DNA from: Diphasiastrum complanatum | Lineage: Eukaryota > Streptophyta > Lycopodiopsida > Lycopodiales > Lycopodiaceae | Reading direction: 5' to 3' | Assembly (NCBI GenBank): GCA_029204225.1 | Contig: CM055099.1 | Location: 42,524,597 to 42,588,596 of the forward strand | DNA length: 64,000 nucleotides | In this document: positions 2,521-64,000 of the stretch, piece after piece | How positions within the stretch are numbered: the stretch's first letter is position 1 | Layout: the number at the start of each line of letters is the position of its first letter | The notes under the pieces: generated by a model | The model's database searches: none | What the model saw: the letters and a program-made list of their open reading frames with translations, nothing else | Told to the model about the DNA's origin: nothing | Translations under genes and position numbers: made by a program

Positions 2521-2585
2521 AGAATGAATTTTGAAAATGTCCTTTTTGTTCCTAAGTTAACCAAGAATTTGTTAAGTGTTGGCCA

Positions 2586-3769: not shown

Positions 3770-3869
3770 ATAGATGCTCTGCAAGAGAGTATGATACTCT
3801 TAGAATCGTACTTGGGATCTTGTGAATCTTCCTCAAGAAAAAAACCACTTGATTGCAAGTGGGCGTATA

Positions 3870-5790: not shown

Positions 5791-5886
5791 CTATTTTGAG
5801 ACGACCTTTAGAAGCTCTATGTCAAATAATAATGTCTTATCGATGAGCCCTTGGTTCTTCAGAACAAAATCCAAAGCTCTCTGACC
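5791..5886 (-). CDS. FKBP19: FKBP19-like last exon with stop (96 bp)
   Basis: The exon encodes [20 protein letters not shown], then [11 protein letters not shown] and a TAG stop at 5793-5791. This is the C-terminal strand of the FKBP fold, and its end matches the usual end of the family. The acceptor is GTGTAG, with a 220-bp intron upstream. An open frame at 5837-6025 crosses it in the wrong frame and is a shadow. Confidence 0.94.
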   Translation of the reverse strand, partial: GQRALDFVLKNQGLIDKTLLFDIELLKVVSK

Positions 5887-8800
5887 CTACACAAACCAAT
5901 TCAGCTATGTGAGCCCAATCTATAAGCTGTTTGAGTCGCACAATATGCCAGCAGAACATCCATGAAGGATCTTCCTTGGAAAAAGAAGGCATACCACTTG
6001 AAAAGGACACGTGGTCTGCAATCATCTTGCATCATCCAACTATTATGTATGAATCTTATGAGTCTCAAAGCTTGTGAAGTTTCAAAGACAAAATATGGAA
6101 GCTTACAGAAAAGGTGGTGGGCTTTGGACCTTTCTTGGTAAAATCATTATCTGGATAACCTATATCAGGAGGAACTATTATCCTGCAAAAATAGATGGAG
6201 CAAAGTATGCAAACTCAGATATTCTGTTTTTTCTGCTTCCTGCAGAAGTAAAGTCGACACATTCACAGCTCATGTCTAACACTGATCCCCACTATCCTCG
6301 AGATTGGCAAGTAGTTTTGAAAATGGATTGTGAGAATATCCAAAAAAGGTTATGGCTTTTCATGCCACAGTCAAAATTAGGTTTTTAATTTTTGGTAGTC
6401 TAGCACCACGTCTTTCATAAAAATTTCCTTAGTATAAAGTATAAACCTGCTACACTTTACTTTGTGCATTAACAAAACTTCTTTCTTAAAAAATAAAAAA
6501 TCTCAAAATTAATTCCCCATGAGAGGAACTTGAACATTTGGGACAAGATATTATATAACAAAATTATGAAACAAAACATGCACATTGTAGTGAAGATCCT
6601 ATATTACCGGAAAAAAAAAAAAGGAAAAATGAAGGCCCTCCTAGCATTCAAAAACTTCACTCCTGTTCACATGGAGATTAGGCTTAAGTTTCGACGCTTT
6701 CTTCAATAGCATGCCGCCCCTCCACAAACTCGTCTTTTTTTACACTCCTTTAAACAGACTCTTCCGTCTCAATTGAAATGCTCTTTCTCAACAGCGTGAC
6801 TATTGCACATTTAAGTCACGGACATGTTTCATGACTTGGTTTGAGAGCACTTTTTCAGCATAGACAATATAAATTAAGATAGCGACTTCTGATGGGTGCT
6901 GAAATCATTTTGCTTCATTTATTGGAATTTGGGAGAAAACCTACTATATCTTCTGGTTTTTTTTCCCTCTGCACTAGTAAGATTTTGGTTTTGATAGCAG
7001 TTTTTTGTTCCTCTCTTCTAGTCACTGAAGGAAAAACAGTACAGTCAGATTTCCAAGCAGCAGATTGGGTAGGGTGACAAAAATTCATGTTTCCCTAGTT
7101 TCTGACACCTTCATCACTGTGTTTCCTACAATAGGATGCCCCTAATGTGCTTTACATATTATCATTTGAATCATTAGAAGTTTCTGGAACTTACCTTTCC
7201 CCCCTTTCTCTTTGCAACTTTTAGGAGATGTTAACAACATTATTCTTCCCACAACAGGGTGTTGCCAAATCTCTTTAAAATTTGCTCATAGGACCTCTGA
7301 AAGCCAAGATATTGAAGATCCATTTTTGGTTCATTTCCTACACTTCATACGTCTCATTAGTTTTTGGGTCTTGTGCTAGAACCTTTTACATCTTTGGCCT
7401 TCCAACAGCAGGTAACTGCATTTTCGTTTAACAGATTAAAGGTTGGGGAGATCAAGCTACCAGACTTTATGGCCCGCTAGCACGTAACATTTTCACATAC
7501 TTAAACAAGATCTGATCGTACCAGTTTTTTTCTACAGTAGGATGCTGCGTGAACCTTCCACAAGTTGCCGACTGAGGCAGCTTCGGTATCCGATCTATAG
7601 CCTATATATAGTACGGCAGAAGTGCGAGCTGCTTCACTCCTGCAATCCTTCTATTTGTATTGGAGTTACCTTGCTGCCAGAATATTGCGACTTGCTTATG
7701 TGCTAAGTAGTTTTGTCGACCCTTCTAATTTCTAAAGTTCACTTAGGGCATTACAACCATGATAGGTCCACGGCTTCTGTCAGGAGCTATGAGTCTACTT
7801 TGCAGTATATTTGCTTTGGCAGACTCTATTGGATCATTCAACAGTATCCTTACCATATTGATTGGCCATGCTGAGGTCATTTTTCTTCTCAGGCAGGGAC
7901 TATTGCTCCATACAGTTCATAGCATATCGATTTTTACAAAGCAGTTCCATTATGATATTCTTTAGCCATGGTTACACTGTGTCATTCATGTGGTATTCTT
8001 GGTCCACACATATGCATTCAAAAGGTACCATTTCCCAATTCCAGTTTTGTCACATCTGATTAAGTTTTTCTTGTGGCTCTTATGTCAGTATTGGCATCAT
8101 ATTCCTACTCAGATGAACATACTTGCTTCTATGTTATGTGCTATTGTGGATTCTTCTGCTGGTCTATTTTGACTCCATTCAATACTGCAATAATTACATC
8201 TGTGTTAATATGGCACTTGTGAGCTATCACCTCAACTAACTTGGTATCTATTTCCTCTAGTCCACATCAGTTTTCATGGCACTGGCTGGCCATGACGTGT
8301 TCGTTATGGAGGACAAATGGTATGCTTGTTTCTTCTGAATAGCTTGAATGAGTGTTTACAATACCAATCCATAAATATCACATATGCTCAAAAATGAAGC
8401 TTCCTTTTTCTGTTGTGGGTTAATTTTTAAAACTCTATTTTTGCAGCTTTATCGGCATATTCATTTTTGTGGTCTTCTTTCTATATGACATTGACATTTT
8501 GCAGCAAACTTTTTAGCATATGTATTTTTGTAATCTTCCATTTGACAATTATATATGTTGGTATCTCCCTTATGGTTTGGTCAAACATTGAAGGCACGGT
8601 ATTTGTTGGTAGGCACTATGTCAAGATTCTGCACAACCAGATCAGGCCAATGAAGCACAGACCATGATAAATTCCTTGAAGCTTAGAATTAAATAAGGTC
8701 TATCCAAACCAGAACATTTGAGATGTGGAAAACCTTCTCACGCCACCAACAGCCATAGTTGACACAGCTTCTTCAAAGGCAGGTATAACCTAAAACGCAT

Positions 8801-11800
8801 AAGCCAACAATCAGATTGACAAGGAAAAATGATTACAGCCCGCAATTTTTAAATTGCAACATTGTACCAACACCAAAGCCTCACCTCTTCAGTACCAACT
8901 TTGAATCTGAAGTATCCTTTCTCACTTCCCTACAACATAACAACCCATTGTAAATTTTGTGCAATAAACACCTTACTCTAAGAAATAAATCTTACAGCCT
9001 CTATGACAGACTTATGACCAAAAACACACGAGCTATATAGTATAGCAATAGAATTAATAATATATTGACAAACAGCTACAATAACTGCTAATATGAAAGC
9101 TGAAAAGATTGGTATGAAAGCTAAAACTAGTGTGCAATTAATCCATTACTCAAATATGAGGTCCATAGGCATAATCAAAACATTCAATTGCCCTAATCAG
9201 GCCTGGGCCTGTGACTTTAGGCCCAATGAAGCCTTTCGAAATTTTGCAAGGAATCCGGCCACTTTGCTGATTTCGAAGGAAGTTCCTTTCACCTGGAGGA
9301 TGCTTTACCTTCCTGAAACCAGAGGACTGATGCAATTCCTTTTTCTTGGGACATTATGAATTAACAGATTGTAATAGGCTACCTAAGTCTTGCATCTGAT
9401 TAGTGTGTTGCTTATTGCTTTTATGGAGTTTCCAAAACCGTTTGACTTAACGTGTCAATTGGGTTATATCGATCAATCCATTCATGACAAGAGAGACCAA
9501 TCAAATATCAGGAGATGGAACAAAGTCTTCTCCATTTGAATCTCCACATTAGCAAGTTTTCTTGGTTTAATGCAAGTAAACGGTAAAGCTATATTTCTAA
9601 AAAAATTACGTTTTTTGATAAATTTACATGCTCTCAAAATGCATAATCGGCAAACTATGCAATTCGGCAAACCGCAACTAAAAAACTGCAATTCATAACC
9701 TATTACAATTTTTAAACTTCGTCCCCCTCAACTACATTAAAAACAACGAAGCCCAATATGCCTATAAAGGCCATAATTCAATAAATTGGAAAAGCTACAA
9801 AACTTTGCAATGACGTGTCCGATCATGATGGTATGGTAATTATCAAGCCTCCTAGGGTCACCACTCTTATGGATGGGATAGACAATATTTGTACACCAGG
9901 AAGGAGGAAAGTCGGTAGTAATTGCACAATCAAGGAGATCAGAAGTAAAGGTGCTAATGTATCAGAGGCATGGATGAGGAGCTCAAAATCTAAGTCCTTT
10001 ACGTCACGAGCACGTGTGTTCTCATCTTCTTAATGGACAAGGACCATGTTAGAAGTCAAGATCGAGAAGAGGGACGAGGAGATATGACAACAGGCGTGTC
10101 AATAGGAATGGTATGCAATGTGATGGCATAGTTAGTCCAAATATGAAGATCAGTCAAAAGGGGAGGTGGAGAGCAAAGAGTAAAAGCATGCCAACAGGCC
10201 CCAATGGAGGCACTAAAGAGAAGGTTAATAAGCCTTTTGCCTTCATTCACTTCATAGGTGCACTATTTTGTGTGAAGAAAATGGTGATAAGAACATCTGA
10301 CATCACGGTCCTCTGGCACGGGGGAGATGCTATTGGAGATTGATCAGTAGCATCTGCATGGTTGGGTGGTTTGGCACCACTGTTATTCCTTTGTGTGTGT
10401 CTTCTAAGCAGGATCTTGGAGGTGCTTCTCCTTACACTGGTATTAGAGCAAGGCTTATGAAGATCGAAGGGATTGGAGCTATGAAGCTTTTTGTCGACTC
10501 TATGGTAGAAATCAATCCAGTTTTCTCTTCCTGGTGGTGAACAAGCTTCCAAGTGAGTGTTTTATCAGTACTTCCACTTTCATGTTGTTAAGATCCATTA
10601 GATATTGGCTTTCTCCATAGCAATATGAGTGATTGTCGATTTTAGCTAGTTTATGATGGTTTTTCAGGGTTTTGCTTGTGTAGCTCAAAACTAATGGTAG
10701 ATCTGAATTTCTAGCAAGTGTACCTTCAGTTAGGGAGTCATTAATTATTGATGTAATGATTGCATGCCGAAAATTTGCAAAATTTATGGTTCTAGGCTCT
10801 GTTCAAAATTTGCTTGTTTTTGAGGATTTTTGACTAGAAATGTGTAGTGAGAGCTATGATCTAGCAAAATCAGAACTTTTGTGCTTACATGTAGATAAAT
10901 TACAGGAGATTGGGCCTGATTGCACTTGCATGTGGATTGGATCCACAAGATCGTGCCGAAAAAGTCGAAAAATGGTAAAAAAATAAGGTTTTTTGATGAA
11001 TGTTTCACTATCTTGGATTTTTTCTCAAGATCAATGTACGAAACTTTGCATGCACATTCTTAGGTCTGTATTGAAGCTCTCCAGAAGCTGTTACCAAGTT
11101 TGGTAGGAATCGGTCACCTTTAAGGGCCTCAAAAATTCGAATATTAGTATATCTTTGATGATTTTTGAGCTTCAATAACTCTTGAAAGTGGATCTGAAAC
11201 CTCTGAACCTGTATACAGCCTGAAAGGTAGGTAGTATTGCCTTTGATTTGAGCCCTCATGCACCCAATTTGGTGATGGAAGGCTTAGGCACCGATCTTCC
11301 AAAGTTATGCTTGTTGGCGCCGTCCATAAAAGCTATCTTTGGTGGATCTAAATCTGTGCTTGCTTGCTAGACCTGTTTGAAGCTTCTATGGCTCTCTAAT
11401 GAACCTTAGTAGAGTGCTTGTAATCTCTGATTGAAGGCATGTTGGGCTGTAGTAGATTTTTGAGAAACCTACCTTGAAAAAGTGCACCCACCTACTGATT
11501 TTTTATGCATTTATCGCTTGCGCGTGTGAAGTCCAAGTGGCAGGGTGACATGGCAATCATCTTGCTAACCCACTCTCCCTCTATACTGTGCTTTCCAGAA
11601 TGCAATTTGACGAGGAAAAACAGCTACCAATGATGGAAAAGCCTATTCAACAGATGGATCAGCCAACTTCATCAACAGCTCTTGATTCCCCATTGAATTC
11701 ACAGGAAATGGATAATCAACATTTATGCAGTGCTATGGAATGTACACACAAGATCGACAACATAAATGTAATTCCCAATTTGAATCGACCCAGAAAATTC

Positions 11801-35355: not shown

Positions 35356-35386
<31 letters not shown>

Positions 35387-35720
35387 GAGGGGGGTGGTCC
35401 AGAGCCAGGGCACGCAGCAGAGCTCCAGAGCACGCAACAGAGCCAGGGCCACACCACGGCATATGGCTCCCTCCAGTTCCGATTCATCTGCGGACCCATG
35501 GGACCTGCAGTCCACAGATTCGGATGATTTATCCTACCATGACACTGATGAGCCTTAGTTGTATAGTTTTCATTACGTTCATGGAACATTGTTGTACCCC
35601 TTTTTGGTGCCATGTGGCCCGATATTATATATTATGATGATCCTATTCACAGCATTGTCGTTATTCAGTATTGTTCTTTGTGTTTTAGTTCAGTAACTTC
35701 GGTTTTATGGTTTATGATTT

Positions 35721-35815
<95 letters not shown>

Positions 35816-38800: not shown

Positions 38801-39474
38801 TATGATATTCAAAGTAGCATCTCTTCTACATTGTGAGCTTAAGGAGAAACATATATGTTTGGGCTTACCCCTCAACACACACAGTTTTTCCAAGTATGAT
38901 ATTCAAAGTAGCATCTCTTCTACATTGTGAGCTTAAGGAGAAAGATATATATATGTTTGGGCTTACCTTCAACACACCCCAAGTATGATATTCAAAGGAG
39001 CATCTCTTCTACATTGTGAGCTTAAGGAGAAAGATATATATATATATATGTGTTTGGGCTTACCCTCAACCATAGTTGCACTGCGTTTCTGAAATGCATT
39101 TCGAAAATATGGAATTTTTTTCCAGAAACGTTTTTTTAAATTTTTTTTTTTTTTTTTTGGGTTTTTTTTGTGCAATATGGGTACCCGGTGAAAGCTCTAA
39201 TTAAGAGCATAATTACTGTGTATTTTGTCGAACGTTTCGGGTGCAGGATGGTCTAGTTTAGGTGCATTAACTCCTAGGTTTACGCTTTAACTCCCAGGTG
39301 CATTAATAAAAAAACATGATGCCCCAAAATTTAACTCCCTCTGTCTCTCTCTCGCTCTCTCTCTCTCTCGTTATCTCTCTCAGATCCAAGAAACTAAACA
39401 AAAATGCTGAATCATGCTAAACAAAAACCATGCTAAGTGTTCTAAACCAATCACCATATTGCATCGTCCTGAAG

Positions 39475-39556
<82 letters not shown>

Positions 39557-54500: not shown

Positions 54501-55154
54501 TGACAAAATGAAAAATGCGATGGACAACACAAACTACAAAATGGAATGGAAATAACAAAACAACAGCCATCGGCAGAAAGTCAAGCCAGGCAAGACGCTA
54601 ATCAAGTGGACGAACTGAAGAAGAGGACGTAAGTCGTCACAACAGGTACGCCAATGAAAAGACGTAACAAAGTGTAGGTAGTACCTTGCAACTGCAAACG
54701 AGAGCGTGCTGAAAACGGTACTAAAATGAAGAGATACCGGGCAGCTACCAAATAGAGATAAAAAATGTTTTGGGCTGCTTTGTAGCTGGAAATCATGCGA
54801 AATGAACTACGTATAAGCTGTAGAAAGCTGCTGGAAATGTGCACGGACAGCCACCGATCAAATCTGTCGAGGAACTGCGTTGGAGCTGGAAATTTTGCCA
54901 AGTATTGGGGCCAAATGGGGCGCTGGACAGCCACCAAGTAATGCTGCAAGAAATGCTGGAGAAAAAAAAAACGCGTCGAAAAGGCTGGAAAATAGCAAAT
55001 ATGAAGGTTGTAAAAATGCGCAGACAACAAATGTAAAGGCTGGAAAAACAGCAACTATGAGGGTGGTGATGAGCCTGCAATCAAATGCGGATTTGGGGTA
55101 GCAAATGAAGTAAAAATTGGAGGGGGATGGGCACTGGACAGCTTAAAAACAAAA

Positions 55155-55205
<51 letters not shown>

Positions 55206-58200
55206 TAGTGGCCCTTGGTACCGCTAGTATGGTACCGCCGGTACGGTACCGCCCTGGGATCCCCAATACTAGGGCGGTACCATTTTTAATATTTTTTTTT
55301 TTTAATATTTTTAATATTTTTTTTTTTGCCTATTACCTACCAAAACAGGTCAGAAAAATGGAAAAAAAGGGGTTCTGGGTATAAAAAAAAGAGGGTACAG
55401 TGCATGGTGCAGGGGACTGGTGCAACAGCACATGGGCATTGTGGGTGACCAGACCATGGGGCCAATGGGAGAGCAACACAGGGGGGGAGCATCACATGGG
55501 TTTAGGGTACAGAGGCACATGGAGGGATGATGGGGATCCACATGGCCGATCAGGCTGTGGGGATAAATAAGCACTCGGAATGCCATTGTGATCGACATTT
55601 TCAGAGGCTGTGAGAGAGCTAGTGATAGACAGTGAGAGAGCAAGCGAGAGCCGGTGACAGGTTGTGAGAGGCTGTTTGAGAGCCAGGGTGCTGTGAGAGG
55701 GTGTTCGAGGACCAGCGTGCTGTGAGGAGAAGGTCGATTGAGATGGCAGAGCGCATACCACCGAAGCCCGAGGGAGAAGCCAGGAGGAAGCTCGAGGAAG
55801 ATATCCGAAGGCACAACGAAAGACATCGGAAGCAAGAGGCAGACATTGCAGAGATGCTGCGACAGACTCGGGAGAGACATCCAGAGCTGCAGATCCCCGC
55901 CCCTGCTGTGGCCCCTGCCCCCGCAGTCGAGCTAGATTTGGATGAGCAGATCGGAATGAACTTCACACGACGGCAGCTCATCATGGTCAAGGAAAGGGCG
56001 GCCAGACGTCGGGCTAACCAGGAGGCAGAGCGAGAGCGACAGAACAATGCACCTGACGAGGGCGAGGAGTCAGTGGAGGATCAGTAGGCATGTTTAGAAT
56101 AGAGAAGGTCCAGCCGTATGTGGCGGACTGTTGCTATGTAATTTTTGGCAGTTTAGGATGCGGCAAATAACTAGATAGCTGCTTAAAAAAAAGAGGGATA
56201 TGTAATGTTATCTTGATACAACCTTAGAATGAGTATATAGTTGTTTTTTGTGCAACGCGAGCCTGGTCATGTGAAATGCAATCTCTGTATTTTTTTAAAT
56301 GCAAATGTAATACGTGTTTGTGAAATGTCGTTTGGGGCGTAGGGGTTATTGTTGTGCTCATTATGTAGGTGCATTTATGTGAAGCTATCATTCACTTCAA
56401 TCGAAATTAGTTGAAAATAAGATTCACACATGCACAAAGAATTTGACATAAAATTGTAAATACAGCATCACATGTACAGAGCGACATACGCACAATGTGC
56501 AGCAAAAAAAGTACGCCAAATACTATATATAATGTGAAAAATGATCCGAGTACAATGGTAGACCGTATGCTAGAGACAAACTACTGAAACTAAAATAATA
56601 GAGCCACAATCAATGCTCTAGCTCTAACTCAGACGAATGCTCCGGAGACAACTCAGGGCCCCGAGCTGACTCTCGCAGCCGATATCTCTGCCTGTCTGGA
56701 ACTGGCATGGGCTGTGCGTCCGAGGAGGAGGACTCCTCACTAGCATCATCCCAATCTGCCTCCGCATCAGCCCCCAAGCAAGCCAAACCAACAACACCTC
56801 CTCCAGCTGGCTGTAATCCTGCACCTCTAGCTGTACCTCGAGCCCTGCGTGGTCGTCCTCTCTTCCCTGGCAGTTTCTGTGCCATGCCTTTCTTGTTCGG
56901 TGCACCCTTGGGCCTTCCTGGTCTCTTGCGGACAAGAGGAGCTGTCAATGCCTCATCACCCCCATGCAAATCACCTGACTGGCTAGGCTGGGCCCAAGCT
57001 GAGGCCGGCTGGGATAGGGAAGCAAAAGAGGGAACTCCCTGTGCGCCTGAGCGAGGAGGATGAGCTCGTGGAGTGTGCCCGTGGCACTGCTACTGGTGGA
57101 GGAACTGGCTGTGCAGGAGGCAAGTACAGCAGCGATATGTACTGGAAGGGGCGCTGCGGTGGCCGGTACTGGTACATCCTGGGTGCTGCCAAAGGGGGAG
57201 CCAGTGGAGTGGGTGCTGCCAAAGGAGGAGGATGTGGAGTGGGTGCTGCCGCTGGAGGAGCCACTGTGGATGTGGGCGCTGCAAGAGAAAACCTGGGCAC
57301 AGATGGTGGCCTGCCATGGAGACTTGGTGCTGCAGAAGTGGACGGCGATAGAGGGGCTGCAGGCCTGAATGGCATCGGTGGCACTGGAGGAGCTGTGTGG
57401 CGCACATATACCCTCTGAGGAGCTGGAGGAACTGTAGACACCTCATGCGGCTGCTCTAGCTGGGACTCTGTGTACGGCATGCTAGCAAGAGATGAAGGGG
57501 GTGCCCTGACACTCGGCATCTGCTGAGCCTCTAAATCCATTGTGGCAATCAAGTCGTCCAGCTGGGCATCTGAATACAAATGCTCTGGGCTCTGGGCCTC
57601 ATCCTGTGCACCATCCCCTGAATCATCCTGTGCACCATCCCCTGAATCATCCCGTGCACCATCATGTGCACCCTGTAGACCCTGCATGGCCTCCCAATCT
57701 GTGCAATCAAAGTCATCTAGTGCCTCCTTTGGTGTGCTATCGTAGTAACGGCCATGACTCTGTACTGCACGCATCCAAGCAGCTGCGGGACCGGCATCTA
57801 AATCACTCTGGTCTCTATCAAGAGCCTCCTCCATCATGTCGACATAGGTAGGTATGCCACTGGCCCCCCCTGTGTGCCCTGCCTGTCTCCCGGTATAACC
57901 TGTGCCATGTGCCCCACCTCTACCGCGTGATGCACCTGTGACCCCTGCCCGTGGCGTGTGCCCTGTAGTGAGACGTAAACCAACATGCTATGGGGGAATA
58001 GCCCATCACCTGCAATGCGCTTGTAATGGTCGGCAGTCTCCTGGCGAGACGTGCGTTGGTGCTACCAAACACCAACCGCTCTAGCTGACTCACTGACAGC
58101 CTGTTTCTTCTCCTGGTGTGAACCAGGGCCCACGTGCTCCAGTTACGCTCACACACGGAGGCAGCGCAACCCTGTGGTACGTGCAATAAAATGGTTCAGC

Positions 58201-61200
58201 ACAGGTGCACGGGTGGAACGTCAACGAAACACAGCAAGGGAGGATGAGATGAGATACATACCTGTGAAAGGACACGCAATGCAAGATGCTGTATGGAGGG
58301 ATAGGTGCTACCGAACATAGTCCACCAGGTAATGGGGAGCTGCCTCCTCTCTGGATCCTGAGCAGCCAGGTGACCGAACGTGCCCATGCCGAAACGAAAT
58401 GCAGCTAACTCCTCCATGAGTCTGATAGGATCCAAGCCAATGTGTGGACCCACCCTGTAGATGTACTCAAGCCAATCCACCTCGAGCTCCCTGTCTGATA
58501 TCTGTGTCGGAGAGAGGAAGAGGGGATGCAAGATGTGTGCAACGCTGTGGATACTCCTGTGAAAGTAGTTCCACCGCATCTCCCAGATGAACCTCAGCTC
58601 CGTCATCCTGCACGAAGACGAAGCAAATTTTGGAAAAAACTTAACATCGACATAAAAACAAATTAGCAAACAATGAAAAGATAAAGAACAATTTCGCTAA
58701 CCTCTCTGGCTGCAAGATGGGCAGCTGCAGGAACTGTCCGATCCGGTCCATGAGCTCATACACCAGTCCAAGTGTGGACCCTTCGCTGTCAGCCATGCGG
58801 AGCACATTGTAGAGTGGTCGAAGCAGTCCTAACAATGTCTGTGCATCCCTCCAGAACTGGTCTCCCCTCACAGTGGAAGAAAAGTGCTCCCCATCCTCCG
58901 TGTGCTGAAACATACTGGCACGCCAAAGATCAATGGCAACCATCTGTAGAAGCTGTGCCCTGCACCTGATCAGACGGTCGATGACCACCAAACCAGGAAG
59001 AGGGCCTCGCGGACGATGGCTCTAACCCAGGGAAGTGCACCTATGTCCCCCATCAAAGGTCTATGTCGTGCGCCGCACAGGGGGTATGGACGATGTGAGG
59101 TAACTTGGCCTCTAGCAGGACACCCATCTGAACACAGTTGGTGGCATTGTCCATCACCACTGTAATGACATGCTGGGGGCCTATGGACAGGATGGAAGAC
59201 CTAATGACGTCGTACATGAAATCTGCAGATATGACTCTCCCCCCTCTACTGCAATCCACGGCTCTCAAAAACTGTGTACCCATGTAGCTGGAGACCAAGA
59301 TGTTGAGGATCGGCCTCCTCCTGACATCAGTCCAGCCATCGGACATGATGCTGCATCCATATGTGGCCCACTGGCGGCGTAGAGGCTCCATCTCTCTGGA
59401 CAAGGACTCGACCCTATCTCTCAACATGTGTATACAGACAACCTCTGAACCAGGGACTCTCCAGCTAGGGCTGACAGACTGTGCAAGGCGGAAGGCCCTT
59501 CTGAAGGGCTCAGAATCGGTGATGGCAAAAGGTAGGTTCAGCTCGTAAATCAAACTGGCCACGGCCTGTGTGGCCTCTCTGTCCATGTGCGGCTGATGCG
59601 CGCCGCGAATGGTCTGCTGCACAAGGGCTCTACCTGGTGGGCGACGGGTGGTGGACCTCCAGCACGGTGCACCAACTGTGACAGGAATGGACGATGACGC
59701 GACAGGCTGGGCACTAGTGGATGCATCGGCTGTAGACGTGGAATGGGGAGAGTGGGATGCACTGGCAAGGATGGGTGCAGCAGCATAAGTGGGGTGCACT
59801 GGTGGAGGGGCAAGATCTGGCATGGGATACAAAAACTGCTGGCTAGGGAGATCATCCGGATGGGAAGGGAAAGAAGAAGGGATCTCATCCACATCCTCGA
59901 AGGCCTCGTCAATAGCATCCTGGGCCTGCTCGGGTGGCGGAGAATCCATGAGAAAATTGTAAACTGGGGGCGTGCGAGCAACAGGACGTGGTGGTGGAGC
60001 CGCAGTGGCAACTGGCGGACGTGATGGGACGGGATCCACCGGAATGGGTGCAGATGGGGGTGCGTGTGGTGGAACTGTCTGAGGGGGATGAGGGGCAATG
60101 GGACGGGATGAGGATGGACTCCCTCTCCTCGTGCATGCCAGCCAAGCAGGCAGCAACTCTGGGTCAACGACATAAGGATCGGTGCAAAACTGGAGAACGC
60201 CCTCCGAAATGGTGTTCTCCCCCGTCACAAGCCGCGACCCGTAGGTGTCCAGTAGTCGCTGCCTATCGGGGACGGTCATGCTGCCACAAGGGGCAACATT
60301 TAAGGTGGCACCCATTTTGGTGCGTGCACCGAGTAGGTGGCCTTTAAGGCGAGTGAGGGACGCAGCAAATTCGACGAGGCAGTATCGGCAACGCACGATT
60401 TTCTGACTAGTCTTGTTGGTCTTGTTGGCAACCCGCCTGACAATGTCTACCTCGTCCCACAAACCGGAAAGGTCGGATTGCACCACTGCGATGGAGAAGA
60501 AAAAAACAGCAGGGTTCACTGTTGGAGAGACGCCGAAAATGTCTGAAGGCAGCGAAGGCAAGGTGATGGCAGGGAGATGCAAATCAGATGCAAGGCAGGA
60601 CGGTCTGTGAGCGAAGGGCGACGCAAATCAAAAGAGGGGCGATCGAAGGCAGGGCAACAAAACCAGGAGCGATGACAGGGCAGCGATGGGCTGAAAAAAT
60701 TTGGGAGAGAAGAAGCGAGGGGGGTGGGTAGTTTAGGTTAAACAAAATTGAAAAAAATATTAAATAATATATATATTTATATATATATACTGTGGTACCG
60801 TGGTACCAGTATGGTACCGCGGTACCAGTACGGTCCCGCGGTACCCAGTACCGCGGGACTTATGATATATATATCATAGTGGCACGTGGTACCGCCATTA
60901 TGGTACCGCGGTACCATAATGGTGGTACTGCCATTATGGTGCCGCCCAAAAATCCGCGGTACCAGGGCGGCACCATTTTTAAACAAATATATATTTAAAA
61001 AAATTTTAATTTTTTTTTTTTTTTTAAATTTTAGTGGGCAATATGGGTATCAACTTGAAGCTCTTGACGAGAGCAGTGCATTTATGCAGGTTGCCGGTGC
61101 TTTCAGCTACAAAAATTTGTTAGACAACTAAACAATGCACCTCTCAGTTTAGTAGTCACTAGTTAACCGTGAACTCAGATCTGTAAGGCCCCCGTTATGA

Positions 61201-63707
61201 GGAGAAGCCATTACTGAGCACGGTTGTTAGTATAGGGTCTACTTGTGAGACCATGATGGTTATGAGATGGCTAGATTACAGTTTCTATATAGCAGCAAGT
61301 CTTGGGGGGTTCGGGGGGCGGTAGCCCCCCGGCGGGGGGTTTGGGAGGCAGAGCCCCCCAACGGTACGACCTCTTCATGATTTGGCCTTCCGACTCCCTG
61401 AGCGAAAACACACTTTTTGGTGTTTTGCATCCCCTTGGTCCTTTGGCTGTTTGCTCTCATCAGAACCGGCAACCTGCATAAATGCACTGCTCTCGTCAAC
61501 AGCTTCAAGCTGATACCCATATTGCCCACTTACTTTTTTATTTTAAAAAAAAATTTAAAAAAAAATATTATATATTATGGTACCGCGAATCAGTATGGAT
61601 CCGCAATACCAGTGTGGATCCGCGGTACCGGGATCCGCGGATCCTGGTACCGCTGGATCTATGATATATATATATATATATATTTTTCCGGCCGCCAAAT
61701 TTAGCGAAAGTACTTCCGCTAACTATTTACTAAAGCTCCGCCAAGGAAAATGCTCTGATGGGAGTTGGTCCTCCTCCAAATTGTGCTAAATGTTGCTGAA
61801 GCAATGAAAGCCCTTAGCAAAGAGAGAAAAATTAGCAAGGAAAATGGGCGCCCAATCAATAAATCAGATCTGAAATTCAGCAATCAGGAAAGTGCTCTGA
61901 TACCAAGTTACGAATAGAGCCACAGCTGATCTAGAGCTAAGCTATGAAAGCATCACATAAGCAAGACTTAAGCTATGAAAGCAACACATAAGCAAGACTT
62001 AACCCTAGAAAGCAGGAAAGAGAGAGATTAAGGAGACTAGGGAGAGAGATCAATATCATCAGCTGAATAACAAATGACACAGTTTCCCTACTTATAGCCA
62101 AGAGGAAGCCCTAAAAGGAAGCTTCCGGTGGCTAGGGCCCAACTGGGAGGGATAATAGTGCGCCCTCCAAGAAGGCCCCCCACTCTCCAGTAATATGTCC
62201 AAATGGCCTAATAATGAATAATAAGGCCAAAGGCCAACCATATAGTCTAAGTGTCACTAATGAATAAAAAGGGCCCAAGGCCTGTTTATGCATAAAGTAA
62301 AGTAAATGTAAATGGACGCGGCGAATGTAATGAGCCAAGTCCATAACTGACCGCGAGTGGGTTGTAGAACACCACTCTTGCTCGCGCCGCGACATGCCTA
62401 GACTACATTTCCAGGATTTGGTTTTGTAAAAAGTTAAGGGCCTGTACAAGCTGGGCGGTGTCTAGCTCGGGAGGAGAGGGTGGTGAAGACGCTCCTTCAC
62501 CCGAGGGTACAAAGGGGTCTAGGTAAGTTCGAATGGAAAAACGACACAAGCTTGGCTACAAATTGGCTTAGGAAGCTTGAGAGCTCTACTAAAGGAGGCT
62601 AGGCCAAAACAAGCTCCTCAATGATGAGAGTGGAGCCTTTACCCCCCACTCACACCACTTTCCTTCCTTTTTGGACTTACTAGGTGGCGGGCCTTATGGG
62701 CACCACCTAGCGAGCACATCACCCCCAAGCCAAGTGGCAACCCTTATGGGCACCACCTATCCTCATTTCACATGGCCACCACCCTCCCTATGCCACCTCA
62801 CCCAACTTGGGTCACACCCCACCTTCACCTCTAGTCACCTCCCCTAATCCCATGGCCCTATGGCCACAAAAAACTCCTAGAACTCCCCTACATCCTTCGG
62901 CTTGGGAGGAGAAACTACACTTGTACATTCATGAGAGAGGAGGTGGAGGTAAAAAGTCCAATTTTCCTCCCTTGAGGTTGTGAGAATGCTTTTGTTGTAA
63001 ATTTGTTAGTGAATGCAGGTGGCTTAAGGAGAAGAGGATGTAATAGGCTCAAGAGGAGGTAATGGGAGGTGGAGAGCTACACCCCACAGGCTTGTACTTG
63101 TTGCAGGTACAGCTTGTGTACTACTTCCATTCCCTCCCCCTATTTCTTTAAAGTCTAGAATAGGCTTTTGTTTAGCTTACAAGCTTTAAATCTTTAAATT
63201 ATAAGGTTAAAAGTTTTAAACTCATGATGTTTAAACATATGTTATAATAGTTTTAAATTTCTAGGTTATAAGTTATGTGAGGGCCGAAAAGTGTGTAAGT
63301 GGAAAAAAAATAATAGTTTGAGAGTGAGATTGGACGTGAGGGAGGGAGGGAGAGAAATTTAGAGGGTGAGAGCCTCTTGCAGAGATAGAACATTGGGAAG
63401 ACAAAGAACATTTCCCTCTATCTTGAAGGTCCACTAATCACTTGTGCTTTTTGTATTTGATCATGTGACACGATTATGACAAGGATTGACAAGGATTGCA
63501 TACACGATGCATTCATAACTGTGTGACATGTTTTAACCCCATTTTTCAATTAACCTCAATCGACACTTAGTTCAGGATCCAAAATGAGCCTTGACCTTGT
63601 ATTGAAGTCCAGATGTTGTCTCTATATAATCAGGATATCGCATCTTTGTCTTCCCATAATCCTTCCCTCGCAATGCTGGCACTGGATTCACAAACCAACC
63701 ATAATTC
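5791..63707 (-). CDS. FKBP19: Chloroplast-type FKBP peptidyl-prolyl cis-trans isomerase, FKBP19-like (5' partial, seven exons)
   Basis: Seven minus-strand exons join in frame into the C-terminal ~171 residues of a plant FKBP: 63596-63707, 38457-38507, 26167-26247, 8885-8929, 8734-8789, 6107-6182 and 5791-5886. Every intron begins GT and ends AG, and no stop interrupts the frame. Recognisable family blocks in order are [60 protein letters not shown]-like [24 protein letters not shown] and [14 protein letters not shown]. From memory of the family, these match Arabidopsis FKBP19, a predicted thylakoid-lumen protein of about 256 residues. Family knowledge: FKBP domains isomerise X-Pro bonds. The aromatic at the FKBP12 Trp59 position is Phe here and Asp37 is replaced by Glu, so drug binding and perhaps activity should be weak. 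The transit peptide (about 85 residues expected) is missing upstream. Three introns of 25, 12 and 17 kb are packed with transposons. Confidence 0.92.
6107..6182 (-). CDS. FKBP19: FKBP19-like exon: [13 protein letters not shown]...PTTFS (76 bp)
   Basis: The exon completes the Arg codon, then encodes [14 protein letters not shown] and KGPKPTTFS, the 80s loop of the FKBP fold. The acceptor is TTTGCAG and the donor GTAAGC. It restores phase 0 for the final exon. The long plus-strand open frame overlapping it (6074-6388) is a shadow. Confidence 0.93.
6183..8733 (-). other. FKBP intron, 2.55 kb
   Basis: The intron has a GT donor at 8733 and an AG acceptor at 6184-6183. I recognise no transposon protein inside. 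A loose motif of the form ACARYAGGRTG recurs near 7130, 7250, 7400 and 7534 at uneven spacing, too weak to call a repeat. Confidence 0.75.
8734..8789 (-). CDS. FKBP19: FKBP19-like exon: [18 protein letters not shown] (56 bp)
   Basis: The exon encodes [18 protein letters not shown] plus two bases of the next Arg codon. It contains the VI pair of the FKBP active site and the alpha helix; the Trp of FKBP12 is Phe here. The acceptor is TTTTAG and the donor GTTTTC. Phase 0 enters and phase 2 exits. A normal 95-bp intron separates it from the preceding exon. Confidence 0.94.
8885..8929 (-). CDS. FKBP19: FKBP19-like exon: [15 protein letters not shown] (45 bp)
   Basis: Fifteen codons read [15 protein letters not shown], the strand before the VIPAFEE helix. 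The acceptor is TTGTAG and the donor GTGAGG. Both edges are phase 0. It follows the preceding exon's GGSFE directly, as the family requires, despite the 17.2-kb intron between them. At 45 bp it is a very small exon. Confidence 0.92.
9811..10540 (+). mobile_element. Possible LTR end with initiator-Met primer-binding site
   Basis: The string TGGTATTAGAGCAAGG near 10439 differs by one base from the common TGGTATCAGAGC site complementary to plant initiator tRNA-Met. It follows a plausible LTR end (CTTACA). I cannot find the LTR start or a matching 3' LTR. The open frames here show no known domain. Confidence 0.3.
10541..11580. other. Intron DNA with no recognisable content
   Basis: I see no domain-bearing frame, LTR terminus or tandem repeat in this stretch. 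It precedes a family N fragment and may be its degraded upstream part. Confidence 0.4.
11588..12540 (+). pseudogene. Family N internal ORF fragment, plus-strand copy
   Basis: This is a near relative of the 375-residue ORF at 19740-20867 on the opposite strand. Shared blocks include [40 protein letters not shown] and [18 protein letters not shown]. Here the frame is broken at least near 11914 and 12050. The product is unknown: it is acidic to neutral with no domain I recognise. Its position upstream of an LTR-like end in the sister copy says it belongs to an LTR element. After about 12556 the sequence switches to a reversed piece of the family's gag region. Confidence 0.65.
12548..12700 (-). 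pseudogene. Family N gag-region fragment, reversed
   Basis: On the minus strand this reads [20 protein letters not shown] and [13 protein letters not shown], matching the plus-strand copy near 17030-17130. It is joined tail to tail with the 11588-12540 fragment at a breakpoint near 12556. Confidence 0.6.
12742..13998 (+). mobile_element. Copia-A 5' LTR (1257 bp)
   Basis: It starts TGTTGGATTTATC at 12742 and ends CAACA at 13998, directly before a primer-binding site. TATATATA at 13233-13240 is a plausible promoter TATA box. The last 150 bp are rich in TTCGAGTTCG-like pyrimidine repeats, and near 13625-13690 there are TCGCGAAT/ATTCGCGA short palindromes. A truncated minus-strand copy is at 1404-2269 and a rearranged partner at 15277. 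Confidence 0.85.
13233..13240 (+). promoter_or_regulatory. Putative TATA box of the copia-A LTR
   Basis: TATATATA lies 491 bp into the LTR, in the expected U3/R neighbourhood. The related copy at 1404-2269 keeps a TATATATA run in the same place. Confidence 0.5.
13999..14012 (+). other. Copia-A primer-binding site
   Basis: TGGTATGAGAGCTA follows the LTR end with no gap. It differs at one position (C to G) from TGGTATCAGAGC, the usual site for initiator tRNA-Met priming in plant copia elements. Confidence 0.75.
14099..15142 (+). pseudogene. Copia-A pol remnant: reverse transcriptase and RNase H
   Basis: Only the 3' half of pol survives. Residues from 14120 on give [16 protein letters not shown], the catalytic [11 protein letters not shown] near 14272, and [18 protein letters not shown] second frame from 14735 gives [32 protein letters not shown] and [16 protein letters not shown] of copia RNase H. 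Gag, protease, integrase and the front of RT are missing between the primer site at 13999 and 14099. The element is therefore internally deleted and cannot be autonomous. A stop at about 14543 and a frame change separate the two halves. It clearly differs from copia-B. Confidence 0.88.
15268..15276 (+). other. Copia-A polypurine tract
   Basis: AAGAGGGGG lies directly before the TGTTGG start of the 3' LTR, the expected place for plus-strand priming. Confidence 0.75.
15277..15590 (+). mobile_element. Copia-A 3' LTR, truncated and carrying an inverted segment
   Basis: The LTR begins TGTTGGATTTATC and follows the 5' LTR to about 15507. From there to about 15585 it matches the reverse complement of 5' LTR positions 12983-13061, and then departs into family N sequence. 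In the 5' LTR that segment is bounded by the 6-bp inverted repeat AAATGC...GCATTT. It is either a small inversion followed by truncation, or a junction with an oppositely oriented LTR fragment. Confidence 0.75.
15566..15841 (-). pseudogene. Family N gag-region fragment, reversed (second piece)
   Basis: The minus strand reads [20 protein letters not shown] and [20 protein letters not shown], matching the plus-strand copy at about 17150-17370. Together with 12548-12700 it flanks the copia-A element, but the two pieces are in the wrong order for a simple insertion. The string ATGGTTTGTAGATCGGATCC occurs at the matching edge of both. Confidence 0.65.
16062..17414 (+). pseudogene. Family N gag-like gene with duplicated capsid motif
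   Basis: The frame opens near 16062 and shifts at about 16160. It then gives [20 protein letters not shown] and [12 protein letters not shown], the fingerprint of the plant retrotransposon gag domain. A second, diverged copy of the same motif ([17 protein letters not shown] and [10 protein letters not shown]) follows at about 16710-16860. The final open frame ends at 17414 with [19 protein letters not shown]. Gag proteins form the particle that packages element RNA. No protease, integrase or RT follows, so the element looks non-autonomous. Breaks occur at 16160, 16444 and 16870. Confidence 0.7.
17552..18304 (+). pseudogene. Family N 3' ORF region, plus copy
   Basis: Fragments read [20 protein letters not shown] and, at the end, [20 protein letters not shown] with a stop at 18302. 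The last 300 bp recur reversed at 19356-19650. The stop is followed after a few bases by a polypurine tract and an LTR-like TGTCATG start, so this is the 3' end of an LTR element's internal region. Function unknown. Confidence 0.6.
18311..18830 (+). mobile_element. Family N LTR-like sequence, plus orientation
   Basis: It starts TGTCATGTACTTC at 18311, directly after the polypurine run GTAGGGGGAG. Its sequence returns reversed in the next feature. The right boundary is set at the symmetry centre, not by a terminus I can see. Confidence 0.6.
18831..19349 (-). mobile_element. Family N LTR-like sequence, minus orientation
   Basis: Read on the minus strand it begins TGTCATGTACTTC at 19349, preceded by CTCCCCCTACTTAAAC in plus reading (the reversed polypurine tract). 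It mirrors 18311-18830 with moderate divergence toward the centre, where each arm has its own insertions. Confidence 0.6.
19356..21106 (-). pseudogene. Family N internal region, minus copy (375-residue ORF)
   Basis: Three consecutive minus-strand pieces read as one decayed gene. First is a short ORF at 21106-20921 with an acidic stretch and a hydrophobic segment ([17 protein letters not shown]). Next is a 375-residue ORF at 20867-19740 with blocks [20 protein letters not shown] and [18 protein letters not shown]. Last is a 91-residue ORF at 19631-19356 ending [13 protein letters not shown] before a polypurine tract and LTR. I recognise no known domain. The plus-strand homologue at 11588-12540 shows it is a repeated mobile sequence rather than a cellular gene. 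Confidence 0.65.
21107..24500. other. Intron DNA without recognisable genes
   Basis: This is AT-rich sequence. Apart from two short minus-strand frames near 21.3-21.9 kb without domain features, no reading frame stands out. It is probably very old retrotransposon sequence, but I cannot assign it. Confidence 0.45.
24511..25490 (-). mobile_element. Two related LTR ends with primer-site-like sequence, minus orientation
   Basis: The strings GATACCATGTAAATGATCAATCCTAC-like at 24518 and GATACCATGGAAATGATCGATC-like at 25484 are homologous, each followed by CAATCTGACAAGCTAT. On the minus strand each reads as an LTR end followed by TGGTATCGAAT or TGGTATCATAGC, resembling an initiator-Met primer site. 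They are probably two insertions of one LTR family. LTR starts and internal genes were not found. Confidence 0.4.
26167..26247 (-). CDS. FKBP19: FKBP19-like exon: [13 protein letters not shown]...GGSFE (81 bp)
   Basis: Twenty-seven codons read [20 protein letters not shown] followed by AKGGSFE. This is a hallmark block of the FKBP19 group with no gap against my memory of the family. The acceptor is ATGTAG and the donor GTAATA. Both edges are phase 0. It is isolated between 12.2-kb and 17.2-kb introns. Confidence 0.94.
27541..27813 (+). mobile_element. Probable 3' LTR start of another gypsy-type element
   Basis: AGGGGGGAAGAA (polypurine) is followed at 27553 by TGTCATTCCCACAAAGC, a typical LTR opening. 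The sequence is interrupted at 27814 by the gypsy-A insertion. No matching 5' LTR was found. Confidence 0.4.
28023..28029 (+). promoter_or_regulatory. Putative TATA box in the gypsy-A upstream LTR
   Basis: TATATAG occurs in the context GGACTATGTATATAG. The same context is at 29082-29096 in the downstream LTR and, reversed, near 48095 in the minus-strand copy, so it is conserved across three LTRs. Confidence 0.5.
28290..28830 (+). pseudogene. Gypsy-A integrase and chromodomain remnant
   Basis: Pieces of a Ty3/gypsy integrase are readable: [20 protein letters not shown] of the zinc-binding end, [16 protein letters not shown] and [17 protein letters not shown] of the catalytic core, and DRDSKF-like codons near 28605. 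A chromodomain-like [18 protein letters not shown] follows at 28740-28795, which places it among plant chromoviruses. Frameshifts and a large deletion inside the core make it non-functional. Confidence 0.85.
28867..29398 (+). mobile_element. Gypsy-A downstream LTR (532 bp)
   Basis: It starts TGTTACGTACCC, ends CTAACA, has a TATATAG box at 29090-29096, and is preceded by the purine stretch GTGGAAGGAA. It is the best complete copy of this LTR in the window. Confidence 0.85.
29404..29980 (+). other. Sequence downstream of gypsy-A, unassigned
   Basis: An open frame at 29464-29682 has no recognisable domain. CTTAGAGCC just after the target duplication loosely resembles a primer-binding site, but the target duplication shows this is pre-existing sequence rather than gypsy-A. 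Confidence 0.35.
29990..30500 (-). pseudogene. Gypsy reverse transcriptase fragment, heavily decayed
   Basis: On the minus strand, FIDYILVYN stands where gypsy RTs have F-x-D-D-I-L-V-Y, so the second catalytic Asp is now Tyr. [20 protein letters not shown] and [14 protein letters not shown] follow in the right order. These are the RT palm and connection blocks of a Ty3/gypsy element. Many stops interrupt them. Confidence 0.75.
30501..31239. other. Unassigned intron DNA left of hAT-1
   Basis: No domain is recognised. hAT-1 should begin near here, but no CATAGTTGCA terminus was found, so its left end is deleted or rearranged. Confidence 0.4.
31982..35558 (+). pseudogene. hAT-1 transposase (BED, DUF659, hAT dimerisation), broken
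   Basis: Exons supported by homology to hAT-2 and by splice sites: 31982-33023, 33115-33460, 33558-33962, 34061-34220, 34330-34667 and 34786-35558. A BED zinc finger reads [12 protein letters not shown], then meets TGA at 32123-32125. The DUF659 core reads [20 protein letters not shown] and [14 protein letters not shown], with TAG at 33314-33316. The dimerisation region contains [24 protein letters not shown] sequence near 34540-34590. The last exon encodes an acidic tail with an AT-hook-like [11 protein letters not shown]. The third exon's donor is GC where hAT-2 has GT. Family role: cut-and-paste transposition. Two stops and a frame change in the first exon make it a pseudogene. Confidence 0.85.
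32363..32552 (+). repeat. 39-bp coding minisatellite in hAT-1 transposase linker
   Basis: AGTACATCA starts at 32363, 32402, 32441, 32503 and 32542, giving steps of 39, 39, 62 and 39 bp. Thirty-nine bases are thirteen codons, so expansion keeps the frame. hAT-2 lacks this array and has a different repeat in the same linker. Confidence 0.8.
35724..35812. repeat. (GA)n microsatellite in hAT-1
   Basis: An almost pure GA run of about 88 bp lies 170 bp after the transposase stop. A (CT)n run stands in the equivalent place in inverted hAT-2 (39475-39552). Confidence 0.95.
36236..38456. other. Intron DNA between hAT-1 and the 51-bp FKBP exon
   Basis: A minus-strand LTR end is possible at 36848, where TTTGATACCAATTGTCAC reads in reverse as a TGGTATCAAAGCC primer-like site. 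The rest shows no gene or repeat I can name. Confidence 0.4.
38457..38507 (-). CDS. FKBP19: FKBP19-like exon: DLRMGTG...ETVV (51 bp)
   Basis: Seventeen codons read [17 protein letters not shown], the loop between the first FKBP strands. The acceptor is TTTGCAG and the donor GTAAGC. Both edges are phase 0, so skipping would remove 17 residues without a frameshift. Introns of 25.1 kb and 12.2 kb flank it, each carrying a hAT transposon of the same family in opposite orientation. Confidence 0.92.
38798..39070. repeat. Three-copy tandem repeat, about 90 bp, hosting hAT-2
   Basis: Units start AAGTATGATATTCAAAG at 38798, 38892 and 38981 (periods 94 and 89 bp). Each contains GCATCTCTTCTACATTGTG and an expanding (TA)n just before GTTTGGGCTTACC. 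The third unit is cut by hAT-2 and resumes after 44156. Confidence 0.9.
39475..39552. repeat. (CT)n microsatellite in hAT-2
   Basis: A near-pure CT run stands just beyond the transposase 3' end, matching the GA run of inverted hAT-1. Confidence 0.95.
39665..43205 (-). pseudogene. hAT-2 transposase (BED, DUF659, hAT dimerisation), one clear stop
   Basis: Six exons with GT...AG introns read on the minus strand: 43205-42214, 42121-41776, 41669-41263, 41155-40986, 40867-40530 and 40423-39665 (stop). The BED finger is open here ([18 protein letters not shown]). DUF659 reads [20 protein letters not shown] and [14 protein letters not shown], followed by HCIDLLIHD. Later exons give [18 protein letters not shown] and [14 protein letters not shown], then the dimerisation block [20 protein letters not shown]. 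The final exon is an acidic, Arg/Gly-rich tail with the AT-hook-like [15 protein letters not shown] at 41067-41065 in the fourth exon breaks it; hAT-1 is open there. I did not verify the frame across the whole first exon. Confidence 0.85.
42838..42935 (-). repeat. 51-bp coding repeat in hAT-2 transposase linker
   Basis: TCCAGAAACCTGTGATGCAG occurs at 42861 and 42912, a 51-bp step (17 codons). On the minus strand it encodes [11 protein letters not shown]-type repeats rich in Arg and Asp. Confidence 0.75.
44165..45590. other. Intron DNA without recognisable genes
   Basis: The tandem-repeat unit resumes at 44157 and is followed by an A-rich run. A 102-residue minus-strand frame at 44954-45262 has no domain I know and is probably chance. 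Confidence 0.4.
45600..46910 (+). pseudogene. Gypsy-B gag zinc knuckle and reverse transcriptase relic
   Basis: A knuckle [14 protein letters not shown] near 45635-45675 lacks the last Cys of CCHC. RT blocks follow at 46430-46530 ([20 protein letters not shown], then [11 protein letters not shown], with Val-Asp-Tyr of the palm) and 46705-46790 (FQCMMNDIL, then [16 protein letters not shown], with the catalytic Asp pair). The order fits a Ty3/gypsy polyprotein. Protease between them was not recognised, and stops and frame changes are frequent. Nothing readable follows 46910. Confidence 0.75.
46911..47821. other. Unassigned intron DNA
   Basis: A 108-residue minus-strand frame at 47000-47326 has no domain that I recognise. 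No terminal repeat was found. Confidence 0.35.
47822..48278 (-). mobile_element. Gypsy-A LTR (457 bp), minus orientation
   Basis: It aligns reversed with 28867-29398 from the TGTT start to the CTAACA end and is somewhat shorter. It retains the GGACTATGTATATAG context near 48095. Confidence 0.8.
48335..50910 (-). pseudogene. Gypsy-A pol: protease, RT, RNase H, integrase, chromodomain (broken)
   Basis: The protease-like [18 protein letters not shown] is near 50600. RNase H is at 49913-49608, with [19 protein letters not shown] and [18 protein letters not shown]. The integrase zinc-binding part is near 49330. The catalytic core at 49241-48876 reads [20 protein letters not shown] and [16 protein letters not shown], so two Asp of the DDE triad are present. 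[20 protein letters not shown] follows. A chromodomain-like tail is near 48400-48440. Frame changes separate these blocks and RT (49960-50480) is strongly decayed. Intact relatives insert cDNA, often into heterochromatin through the chromodomain. Confidence 0.85.
50911..54362 (-). pseudogene. Gag and protease relic with a repetitive middle
   Basis: On the minus strand, 54362-53866 gives a gag-like segment with [15 protein letters not shown] and [18 protein letters not shown], as in plant retrotransposon capsid regions. Next, 53468-53007 gives a retropepsin-like fold ([19 protein letters not shown]), where the usual Asp-Thr/Ser-Gly is Asp-Thr-Ser. From 53000 down to 50911 no RT or integrase follows, only low-complexity frames with repeated HSWL(L)xIAW units. 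Near 52203-52100 a copia integrase-tail fragment reads [20 protein letters not shown]. The region looks like a chimeric, partly tandem-repeated relic. Confidence 0.6.
50940..52060. repeat. Degenerate interspersed tandem units with AACCAGGAATGCCA
   Basis: Units of the type AACCAAGCxATATGxAxxAACCAGGAATGxCA recur near 50950, 50990, 51915 and 51990, with further partial copies of CCAAGGTATCxxxAxxGCCCA near 51017, 51070 and 51274. Spacing is irregular. Confidence 0.5.
54363..55150. other. Intron DNA without recognisable genes
   Basis: A-rich sequence; its overlapping frames on both strands look like composition effects. It leads into the TA microsatellite. Confidence 0.4.
55157..55203. repeat. 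(TA)n microsatellite, hAT-3 target
   Basis: A TA run of about 46 bp ends at the hAT-3 terminus at 55204. TA runs reappear at 60865-60874 and after 61663. Confidence 0.95.
55743..56087 (+). CDS. Small charged ORF inside hAT-3, opposite to the transposase
   Basis: A 114-residue frame starts at an ATG in a good plant context (GAGATGGCA) and is open to TAG. It is rich in Arg, Glu and Lys, with an amphipathic, probably coiled-coil segment ([20 protein letters not shown]) near residues 12-31, a Pro/Ala stretch near 55-65 and a second basic helix ([20 protein letters not shown]) near residues 81-100. I recognise no family. GGATAAATAAG at 55561 could be a TATA box about 180 bp upstream. hAT-1 and hAT-2 have no equivalent between the transposase and their end. 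It could be a captured host fragment, an accessory gene or chance. Confidence 0.4.
   Translation: MAERIPPKPEGEARRKLEEDIRRHNERHRKQEADIAEMLRQTRERHPELQIPAPAVAPAPAVELDLDEQIGMNFTRRQLIMVKERAARRRANQEAERERQNNAPDEGEESVEDQ
56610..60582 (-). pseudogene. hAT-3 transposase (BED, DUF659, hAT dimerisation), deleted and frameshifted
   Basis: The first domain exon probably starts at 60485, after a pyrimidine-rich TCTCCATCGCAG acceptor. It gives a BED finger ([20 protein letters not shown]) and DUF659 ([44 protein letters not shown]). Near 59058 one base appears to be missing. After REALF the sequence jumps to [12 protein letters not shown], omitting about 45 residues and an intron that hAT-1 and hAT-2 have. 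Later pieces are 58991-58710, 58620-58260 (ITWWTMFGS) and 58186-57990 ([20 protein letters not shown], dimerisation). A Pro-rich region and an AT-hook-like tail ([15 protein letters not shown]) close it, with a frame change near 56985. Confidence 0.8.
60875..61663. mobile_element. Short non-autonomous hAT derivative (789 bp)
   Basis: It begins CATAGTGGCACGTGGTACC and ends GGATCTATG, related to the hAT-3 termini and likewise GGTACC-rich. TA repeats flank it on both sides. Inside, about 90 bp near 61030-61100 (GGGCAATATGGGTATCAACT, then GAGAGCAGTGCATTTATGCA) recurs inverted near 61447-61530, so the arms are long. The middle is a G/C-run segment. No transposase is encoded. Confidence 0.75.
61298..61368. 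other. G-run and C-run cluster with hairpin and quadruplex potential
   Basis: Runs of six G and six C alternate: GGGGGGTTCGGGGGGCGG, then AGCCCCCCGGCGGGGGG, then AGAGCCCCCC. Self-complementary pairing is obvious, and four or more G runs occur on the plus strand. Confidence 0.7.
61672..63590 (-). mobile_element. LTR end and primer-binding site, minus orientation; remainder unassigned
   Basis: GCTCTGATACCAA at 61898 is the exact reverse of TTGGTATCAGAGC, the initiator-Met primer site. The internal region therefore runs leftward and is cut by the hAT derivative at 61663, while its LTR extends rightward from about 61911. The LTR's far boundary could not be set. A 33-bp direct duplication (AGCTATGAAAGCAxCACATA) lies at 61942-62002. 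Repeated GGGCACCACCTA strings occur near 62700-62760. Confidence 0.5.
63596..63707 (-). CDS. FKBP19: FKBP19-like exon: GKDYGKTKM to SGLQYK
   Basis: The minus strand reads [18 protein letters not shown] and then ETTSGLQYK, ending at 63596 before a GTCAAG donor. This is the entry strand of the FKBP fold and the most FKBP19-specific block. The 3' edge is firm because the next exon starts with Asp-Leu-Arg in the same phase. The 5' edge is uncertain: AG acceptors are possible before 63707 or 63681, and the open frame runs on to about 63810. Confidence 0.88.
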
Positions 63708-64000
63708 CTGGCACCATAAGAACCAGTAATGATTAAATCCTTCAACCAAACTTGGGCATACTCACAAACTTCGAGGAGACAAACCTAGGCTAAACATTGG
63801 AGATATTAAAACTGTAGGACACTGAGCATGCAGTTAGGATTTGCTTACTGGCTCACACAAGTAGATCATATCACAACCACAGAATTTGCTCAAACCAACA
63901 TCATAATCGAAAAGAGCATGGCAAAAAAGTTGAAACCCTAATTGGCAAAAAACAAAAGACCACAATTTATCAAATGACAGAACAAAGAAGTACATAGATG
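63708..64000 (-). other. FKBP upstream sequence: intron or further coding
   Basis: The minus-strand frame continues open from the 63707 region to about 63810 ([18 protein letters not shown]). I cannot tell coding from intron here, because several AG sites could be the acceptor. No transit-peptide-like ATG frame is evident up to 64000. Confidence 0.35.

Follow-up and report, generated by a model that had tools for sequence, protein, structure and literature searches.

An apparently functional FKBP19 gene with transposon-filled giant introns in the lycophyte Diphasiastrum complanatum

We analysed a window of 64,000 nucleotides (the whole stretch of DNA under study; C8:42524597-42588596) in the 1.745-Gb assembly of Diphasiastrum complanatum, a lycophyte of the family Lycopodiaceae. 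Seven coding exons of an FKBP19 gene were located on the minus strand of the window: exon 1 (63596..63681, 86 bp, coding from the split codon A|TG), exon 2 (38457..38507, 51 bp comprising 17 codons, with phase 0 at either end), exon 3 (26167..26247, 81 bp), exon 4 (8885..8929, 45 bp), exon 5 (8734..8789, 56 bp), exon 6 (6107..6182, 76 bp) and the last coding exon, exon 7 (5791..5886, 96 bp including the TAG stop). The six introns obtained by joining these exons measured, in gene order, 25,088, 12,209, 17,237, 95, 2,551 and 220 bp, and the three giant ones on this strand (intron 1: 38508..63595; intron 2: 26248..38456; intron 3: 8930..26166) summed to 54,534 bp. GT...AG borders were present at all six introns, and the joined minus-strand frame was open as far as the TAG. 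The original prediction had proposed seven exons forming one open frame with GT...AG introns of such sizes; rejoining the exons confirmed this structure, including the exon bounds from 38507-38457 through 5886-5791 and the donor after 63596. Its expectation that gene finding would report transposons only was not borne out, as the public model O6H91_08G071800 already joins seven exons.

The 5' end required correction. Exon 1 had been started at 63707, giving 517 coding bases and a gene complete in seven exons, but examination of 80 kb upstream of the window revealed a missing exon that reads MKALTRRDMLYLPARVACLSMLAAWIQDQNVEAATFAD, followed by A|GTATGT. This upstream exon would occupy 64441-64569 in extended numbering (C8:42589037-42589165, minus strand) provided that its acceptor is the AG preceding ATCAAG; it lies 441 bp beyond the window edge (64000) and is separated from exon 1 by an intron of 759 bp. 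Across the junction to 63681, the split codon A|TG encodes M and yields FAD-MPALRG, as in other plants. Since the upstream exon ends in FAD A|GT and MPALRG is conserved among homologues, we placed the acceptor at 63681, which leaves 491 coding bases in the window; the gene thus runs on upstream past base 64000, with a known span of 58,779 bp. The start at 63707 was rejected on the homologue alignment, the motif counts and the split codon of the upstream exon. The conserved motif was present in 116 of the 120 listed proteins, with M as the preceding residue in 100 and V in 16; the V-bearing homologues appear to use a different first exon, which would be expected were the codon interrupted by an intron. 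Only four [FY]xD A|GT sites occurred on the gene strand in 80,319 bases, and an open frame lay behind the upstream-exon site alone. The same exon was the best profile match among 1,753 upstream peptides, although this match was weak by itself (E 0.16).

Judged by eye, the upstream exon encodes a lumen-targeting segment with a twin arginine, a hydrophobic stretch and an Ala-rich cleavage site (RRDMLYLPARVACLSMLAAWIQDQNVEAATFAD). No convincing candidate for a chloroplast transit-peptide exon was found among the upstream peptides from the 80 kb examined. The deposited O6H91_08G071800 begins at an internal methionine (MRYPDY) without the upstream twin-arginine exon, and is therefore a gene model cut short at its 5' end, with the targeting segment absent.

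We then compared the joined protein with 5.8 billion database proteins. The search yielded 868 candidates, 835 of them matching at E<=0.001, and the 120 best were listed. The top match, O6H91_08G071800 ("hypothetical protein" of D. complanatum), was identical to the joined protein over its whole 150 aa, and the other 119 listed matches were 78-88% identical, many of them named FKBP19, chloroplastic. The joined protein contained an FKBP_C domain (PF00254; score 58 bits, cut-off 21.1), and a 12-row alignment revealed both parts of the FKBP19 signature, namely the block that opens the mature region, with its Met supplied by the upstream exon, and the C-terminal block. In a PDB search, the 60 of 78 matches shown were either remote FKBPs of bacteria or of animal type, or plant FKBPs belonging to different types (best E 1.9e-11). 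The protein matches and the alignment support the FKBP19 identity proposed previously, and on sequence grounds we regard the seven-exon reading as not a chance product. A gymnosperm origin was rejected, since the identical protein comes from a lycophyte. Compared with Arabidopsis FKBP19 (AT5G13410), the protein is the same one, with a mature region that opens alike and an identical C-terminal end; with likeness judged from the proteins, the difference lies in gene architecture alone, namely three introns of more than 10 kb. According to a passage of PMC8346976, AT5G13410 is a detected thylakoid-lumen protein whose mature form starts at residue 89. A literature search on FKBP19 gene structure (exon, intron, gene family) returned nothing.

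Conservation of the protein was high. Among 116 homologues, which were drawn from the 120 best matches to the query and are thus biased toward similar sequences, 85 columns were invariant (one of them by construction, the first letter of the homologues having been set to M), and none was changed in Diphasiastrum FKBP19. Of the 103 columns conserved at 98% or more, one was changed (L to I). The earlier view that the gene is held intact by selection gains support from the unchanged invariant columns. Differences to Physcomitrium, out of 162 positions, numbered 29 for Diphasiastrum, 32 for Selaginella, 35 for Ceratopteris, 35 for Amborella and 41 for Adiantum, and three unnamed database sequences were nearer to Physcomitrium (26, 28 and 28 differences). 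By these counts, Diphasiastrum FKBP19 is not evolving faster than most of its relatives. Some classical FKBP12 active-site residues are replaced in this protein (Trp for Tyr26, Glu for Asp37 and Phe for Trp59). The corresponding W57, E70 and F101 were invariant across the 12 aligned FKBP19 rows; if isomerase activity is weak, this would therefore characterise the FKBP19 family as a whole and would not point to decay.

The giant introns contained recognisable transposons between intact exons. Stop-to-stop open reading frames of at least 90 aa numbered 128 in the window, and 30 of them were scanned against Pfam, so the transposon cover given here is a lower bound. Nine of the 30 (six intronic and three in the flank) encoded a transposon domain that reached the Pfam cut-off. 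In intron 1, hAT pieces (DUF659 twice, Dimer_Tnp_hAT) lay near 56.6-60.9 kb and 39.1-43.9 kb, and Gypsy/LTR-element pieces lay near 47-54 kb, with RT_RNaseH and SH3_retrovirus domains above the cut-off and chromo, rve and RVP_2 domains below it. Intron 2 contained a hAT copy and LTR-element pieces, and intron 3 a Copia remnant with an RVT_2 domain. The claim that the introns hold almost every transposon in the window was too broad, as three of the nine domain-bearing frames lay in the 5.8-kb flank, in a Copia remnant outside the gene (2556-4321; gag_pre-integrs, SH3 and RVT_2). For a 477-bp segment taken from the intron-1 hAT, the genome offered 2,311 candidate places; the 40 that were scored, the segment itself among them, were all 97-100% identical, so this hAT family has spread recently. 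The hAT and LTR pieces of intron 1 (39000-61000) were in the orientation of the gene, and the intron-2 hAT and the intron-3 Copia were in the opposite one. No match at the gathering score was obtained in an Rfam scan, and a tRNA search returned none.

To place these lengths within the genome, we compiled control introns from exon-by-exon matches to the MCM and Cpn60_TCP1 families on chromosome-size contigs, keeping gaps across which the profile was continuous. For MCM, 29 of 30 gaps were kept and 38 of 71 matches used; for Cpn60_TCP1, 31 of 49 gaps were kept and 73 of 94 matches used, 10 matches being lone, and the filter limits differed slightly between the two families. The resulting 60 control introns had a median of 329 bp; 14 exceeded 1 kb, seven exceeded 5 kb and one exceeded 10 kb, and the longest measured 11,937 bp, figures from which 19 of 79 gaps (some of 4.0-7.9 kb) had been dropped for profile residues missing between the matches, and in which the 40-kb grouping limit of the Cpn60_TCP1 set hides longer introns. 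Multi-kilobase introns thus also occur in housekeeping genes of this genome. The giant FKBP19 introns, at 12-25 kb, were longer than the longest control (11.9 kb). Introns of more than 10 kb made up three of seven in FKBP19 (with the 759-bp intron counted) and one of 60 in the controls (Fisher one-sided P 0.003), a value to be read with the fact that FKBP19 was picked for its length. With this selection considered, the comparison places FKBP19 in the long tail of a genome in which lengths of 5-12 kb are not uncommon.

When the assembly was searched in six frames, 11 matches were returned, comprising three exons of this gene, the same three on the unplaced contig C1587 and five other FKBPs at 34-37% identity; this search shows the longer exons only, small ones being missed, and the assembly may be incomplete. 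A diverged second FKBP19 locus or an intronless copy was found nowhere in this search and was ruled out by the breakdown of the 11 matches. An intact FKBP19 elsewhere in the genome, with this one unexpressed, had been named as one finding that would count against the gene; besides the window, the assembly search gave only C1587, which is allele-like. C1587 was collinear with window positions 1-39359 at 99.3-99.8% identity, and FKBP19 exons 2-7 were identical on it, with their splice sites intact. The exon identity itself was dropped as evidence, about 0.5 difference being expected in 405 exonic bases.

The locus is very probably a nuclear gene that encodes FKBP19, an immunophilin of the thylakoid lumen, and that is transcribed and spliced through transposon-filled introns, its protein going to the lumen. 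The gene looks functional, because no invariant column is changed and the only other close match is the allele-like contig. RNA polymerase II would read across the transposon-filled introns to make a pre-mRNA no shorter than 58.8 kb, and ordinary GT-AG splicing would remove the giant introns. The twin-arginine segment, whose exon lies just beyond the window, would then assist the protein in reaching the thylakoid lumen. Transposons may pile up because intron DNA away from the splice signals is nearly neutral, while the exons would stay intact through strong purifying selection on the protein. By analogy with Arabidopsis and rice, transcription through the giant introns probably relies on general plant machinery of the IBM2/EDM2 type that tolerates heterochromatic introns. 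Alternatively, the gene might have been silenced recently, with giant and probably heterochromatic introns stopping productive transcription and decay too recent to show. The unusual length of the introns for this genome and the targeting segment missing from the deposited model fit such silencing; however, the unchanged invariant columns and the unraised rate, the intactness of exons 2-7 and their splice sites on C1587 as well, and the assembly search, in which no replacement locus was found, make it quite unlikely.

The comparison of the window with C1587 bears on two further alternatives. We counted 49 mismatches in 39,306 aligned bases, and C1587 contained two extra blocks, one of 1,530 bp in intron 3 (at 14086) and one of 1,862 bp downstream of the gene (at 1400). 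Read by eye, the 1,530-bp block encodes Copia integrase and reverse transcriptase. Because the Copia frame continues in C1587, the window's copy seems to have lost this block by deletion. The intron length of FKBP19 is thus still changing. C1587 is most simply, and probably, the other haplotype. That it is instead a very recent duplicate at a second locus would suit an unplaced contig differing by two such blocks, yet this is very unlikely given its identity and collinearity over 39 kb, and other housekeeping genes are likewise accompanied by near-identical copies on small contigs, a pattern that leftover haplotigs would produce. It is extremely unlikely that assembly error, with misjoined repeats and shorter true exon distances, accounts for part of the giant introns: the introns are highly repetitive, but the window contains no N, and over 1-39359 C1587 agrees with it in order and nearly so in spacing (intron 1 beyond 39359 being uncovered). 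With the haplotype reading of C1587, two haplotype-like copies whose lengths differ by 1.5 kb in one giant intron would offer a test of intron length against expression outside seed plants.

Transposon-filled introns are already well known in large plant genomes, and FKBP19 gives a clear lycophyte example of this plant pattern, in which a small, strongly conserved gene stays intact while transposons stretch its introns. Passages of published reports give a maximum MSH1 length of 805,861 bp for Cycas, with more than 50 kb in two ferns (PMC10487979), a DNA-PKcs gene of about 794 kb in Cycas (PMC10419180), 18,536 introns above 20 kb in Pinus massoniana (PMC12122422) and a mean intron of 4.9 kb in one fern (PMC12868710); the last paper also cites Diphasiastrum for genes and repeats that are evenly spread. 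The present case resembles these gymnosperm and fern genes in that the introns of a conserved low-copy gene are stretched by LTR elements and other transposons, and differs from them in that Diphasiastrum is a lycophyte with a smaller genome (1.745 Gb) and hAT elements form a visible part. In part of a review (PMC9364684), the reason for keeping very long gymnosperm introns is called largely obscure, and transcript accuracy appears to be little affected by such introns. Proper mRNA formation through heterochromatic introns needs IBM2 in Arabidopsis and rice, as stated in a section of PMC7145194; the likeness of FKBP19 to IBM2-dependent genes, by analogy only, is that intronic transposons lie within a gene needing full mRNA.

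Two inverted hAT copies, each about 4.9 kb long and 79.9% identical to one another, flanked exon 2 and left it within a loop of about 2.8 kb. The intron-1 copy (39068..43944, minus strand) contained DUF659 and Dimer_Tnp_hAT, and the intron-2 copy (31279..36238, plus strand) was known by its identity to the first, its three scanned open reading frames giving no Pfam match. The two arms could pair in the pre-mRNA and cause exon 2 skipping, circular RNA or double-stranded RNA feeding small RNAs, in which case one transposon insertion would partly set FKBP19 output; we consider this unlikely. Skipping would keep the frame, since exon 2 consists of 17 whole codons. The inverted pair is no surprise because the gene contains three hAT regions, and it was kept out of the main claim for this reason and because, in the passage of PMC4647462 concerned, only 92 of 2,354 rice circRNAs studied had flanking MITEs or complementary flanks. 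C1587 ends at window position 39359, before most of the second hAT arm.

Pure dinucleotide repeats occurred near the ends of the inverted hAT copies (CT x39 at 39476-39553; GA x43 at 35726-35812), and C1587 breaks off near the former. Intron 3 contained an inverted repeat (18067-18569 / 19092-19593) with arms of about 0.5 kb, 95% identical, and a loop of about 0.5 kb, a possible source of hairpin RNA. A second inverted pair in intron 3 (11595-12555 / 19650-20648) was 93% identical over about 1 kb and overlapped a 375-aa open frame (19740-20867) without a Pfam match.
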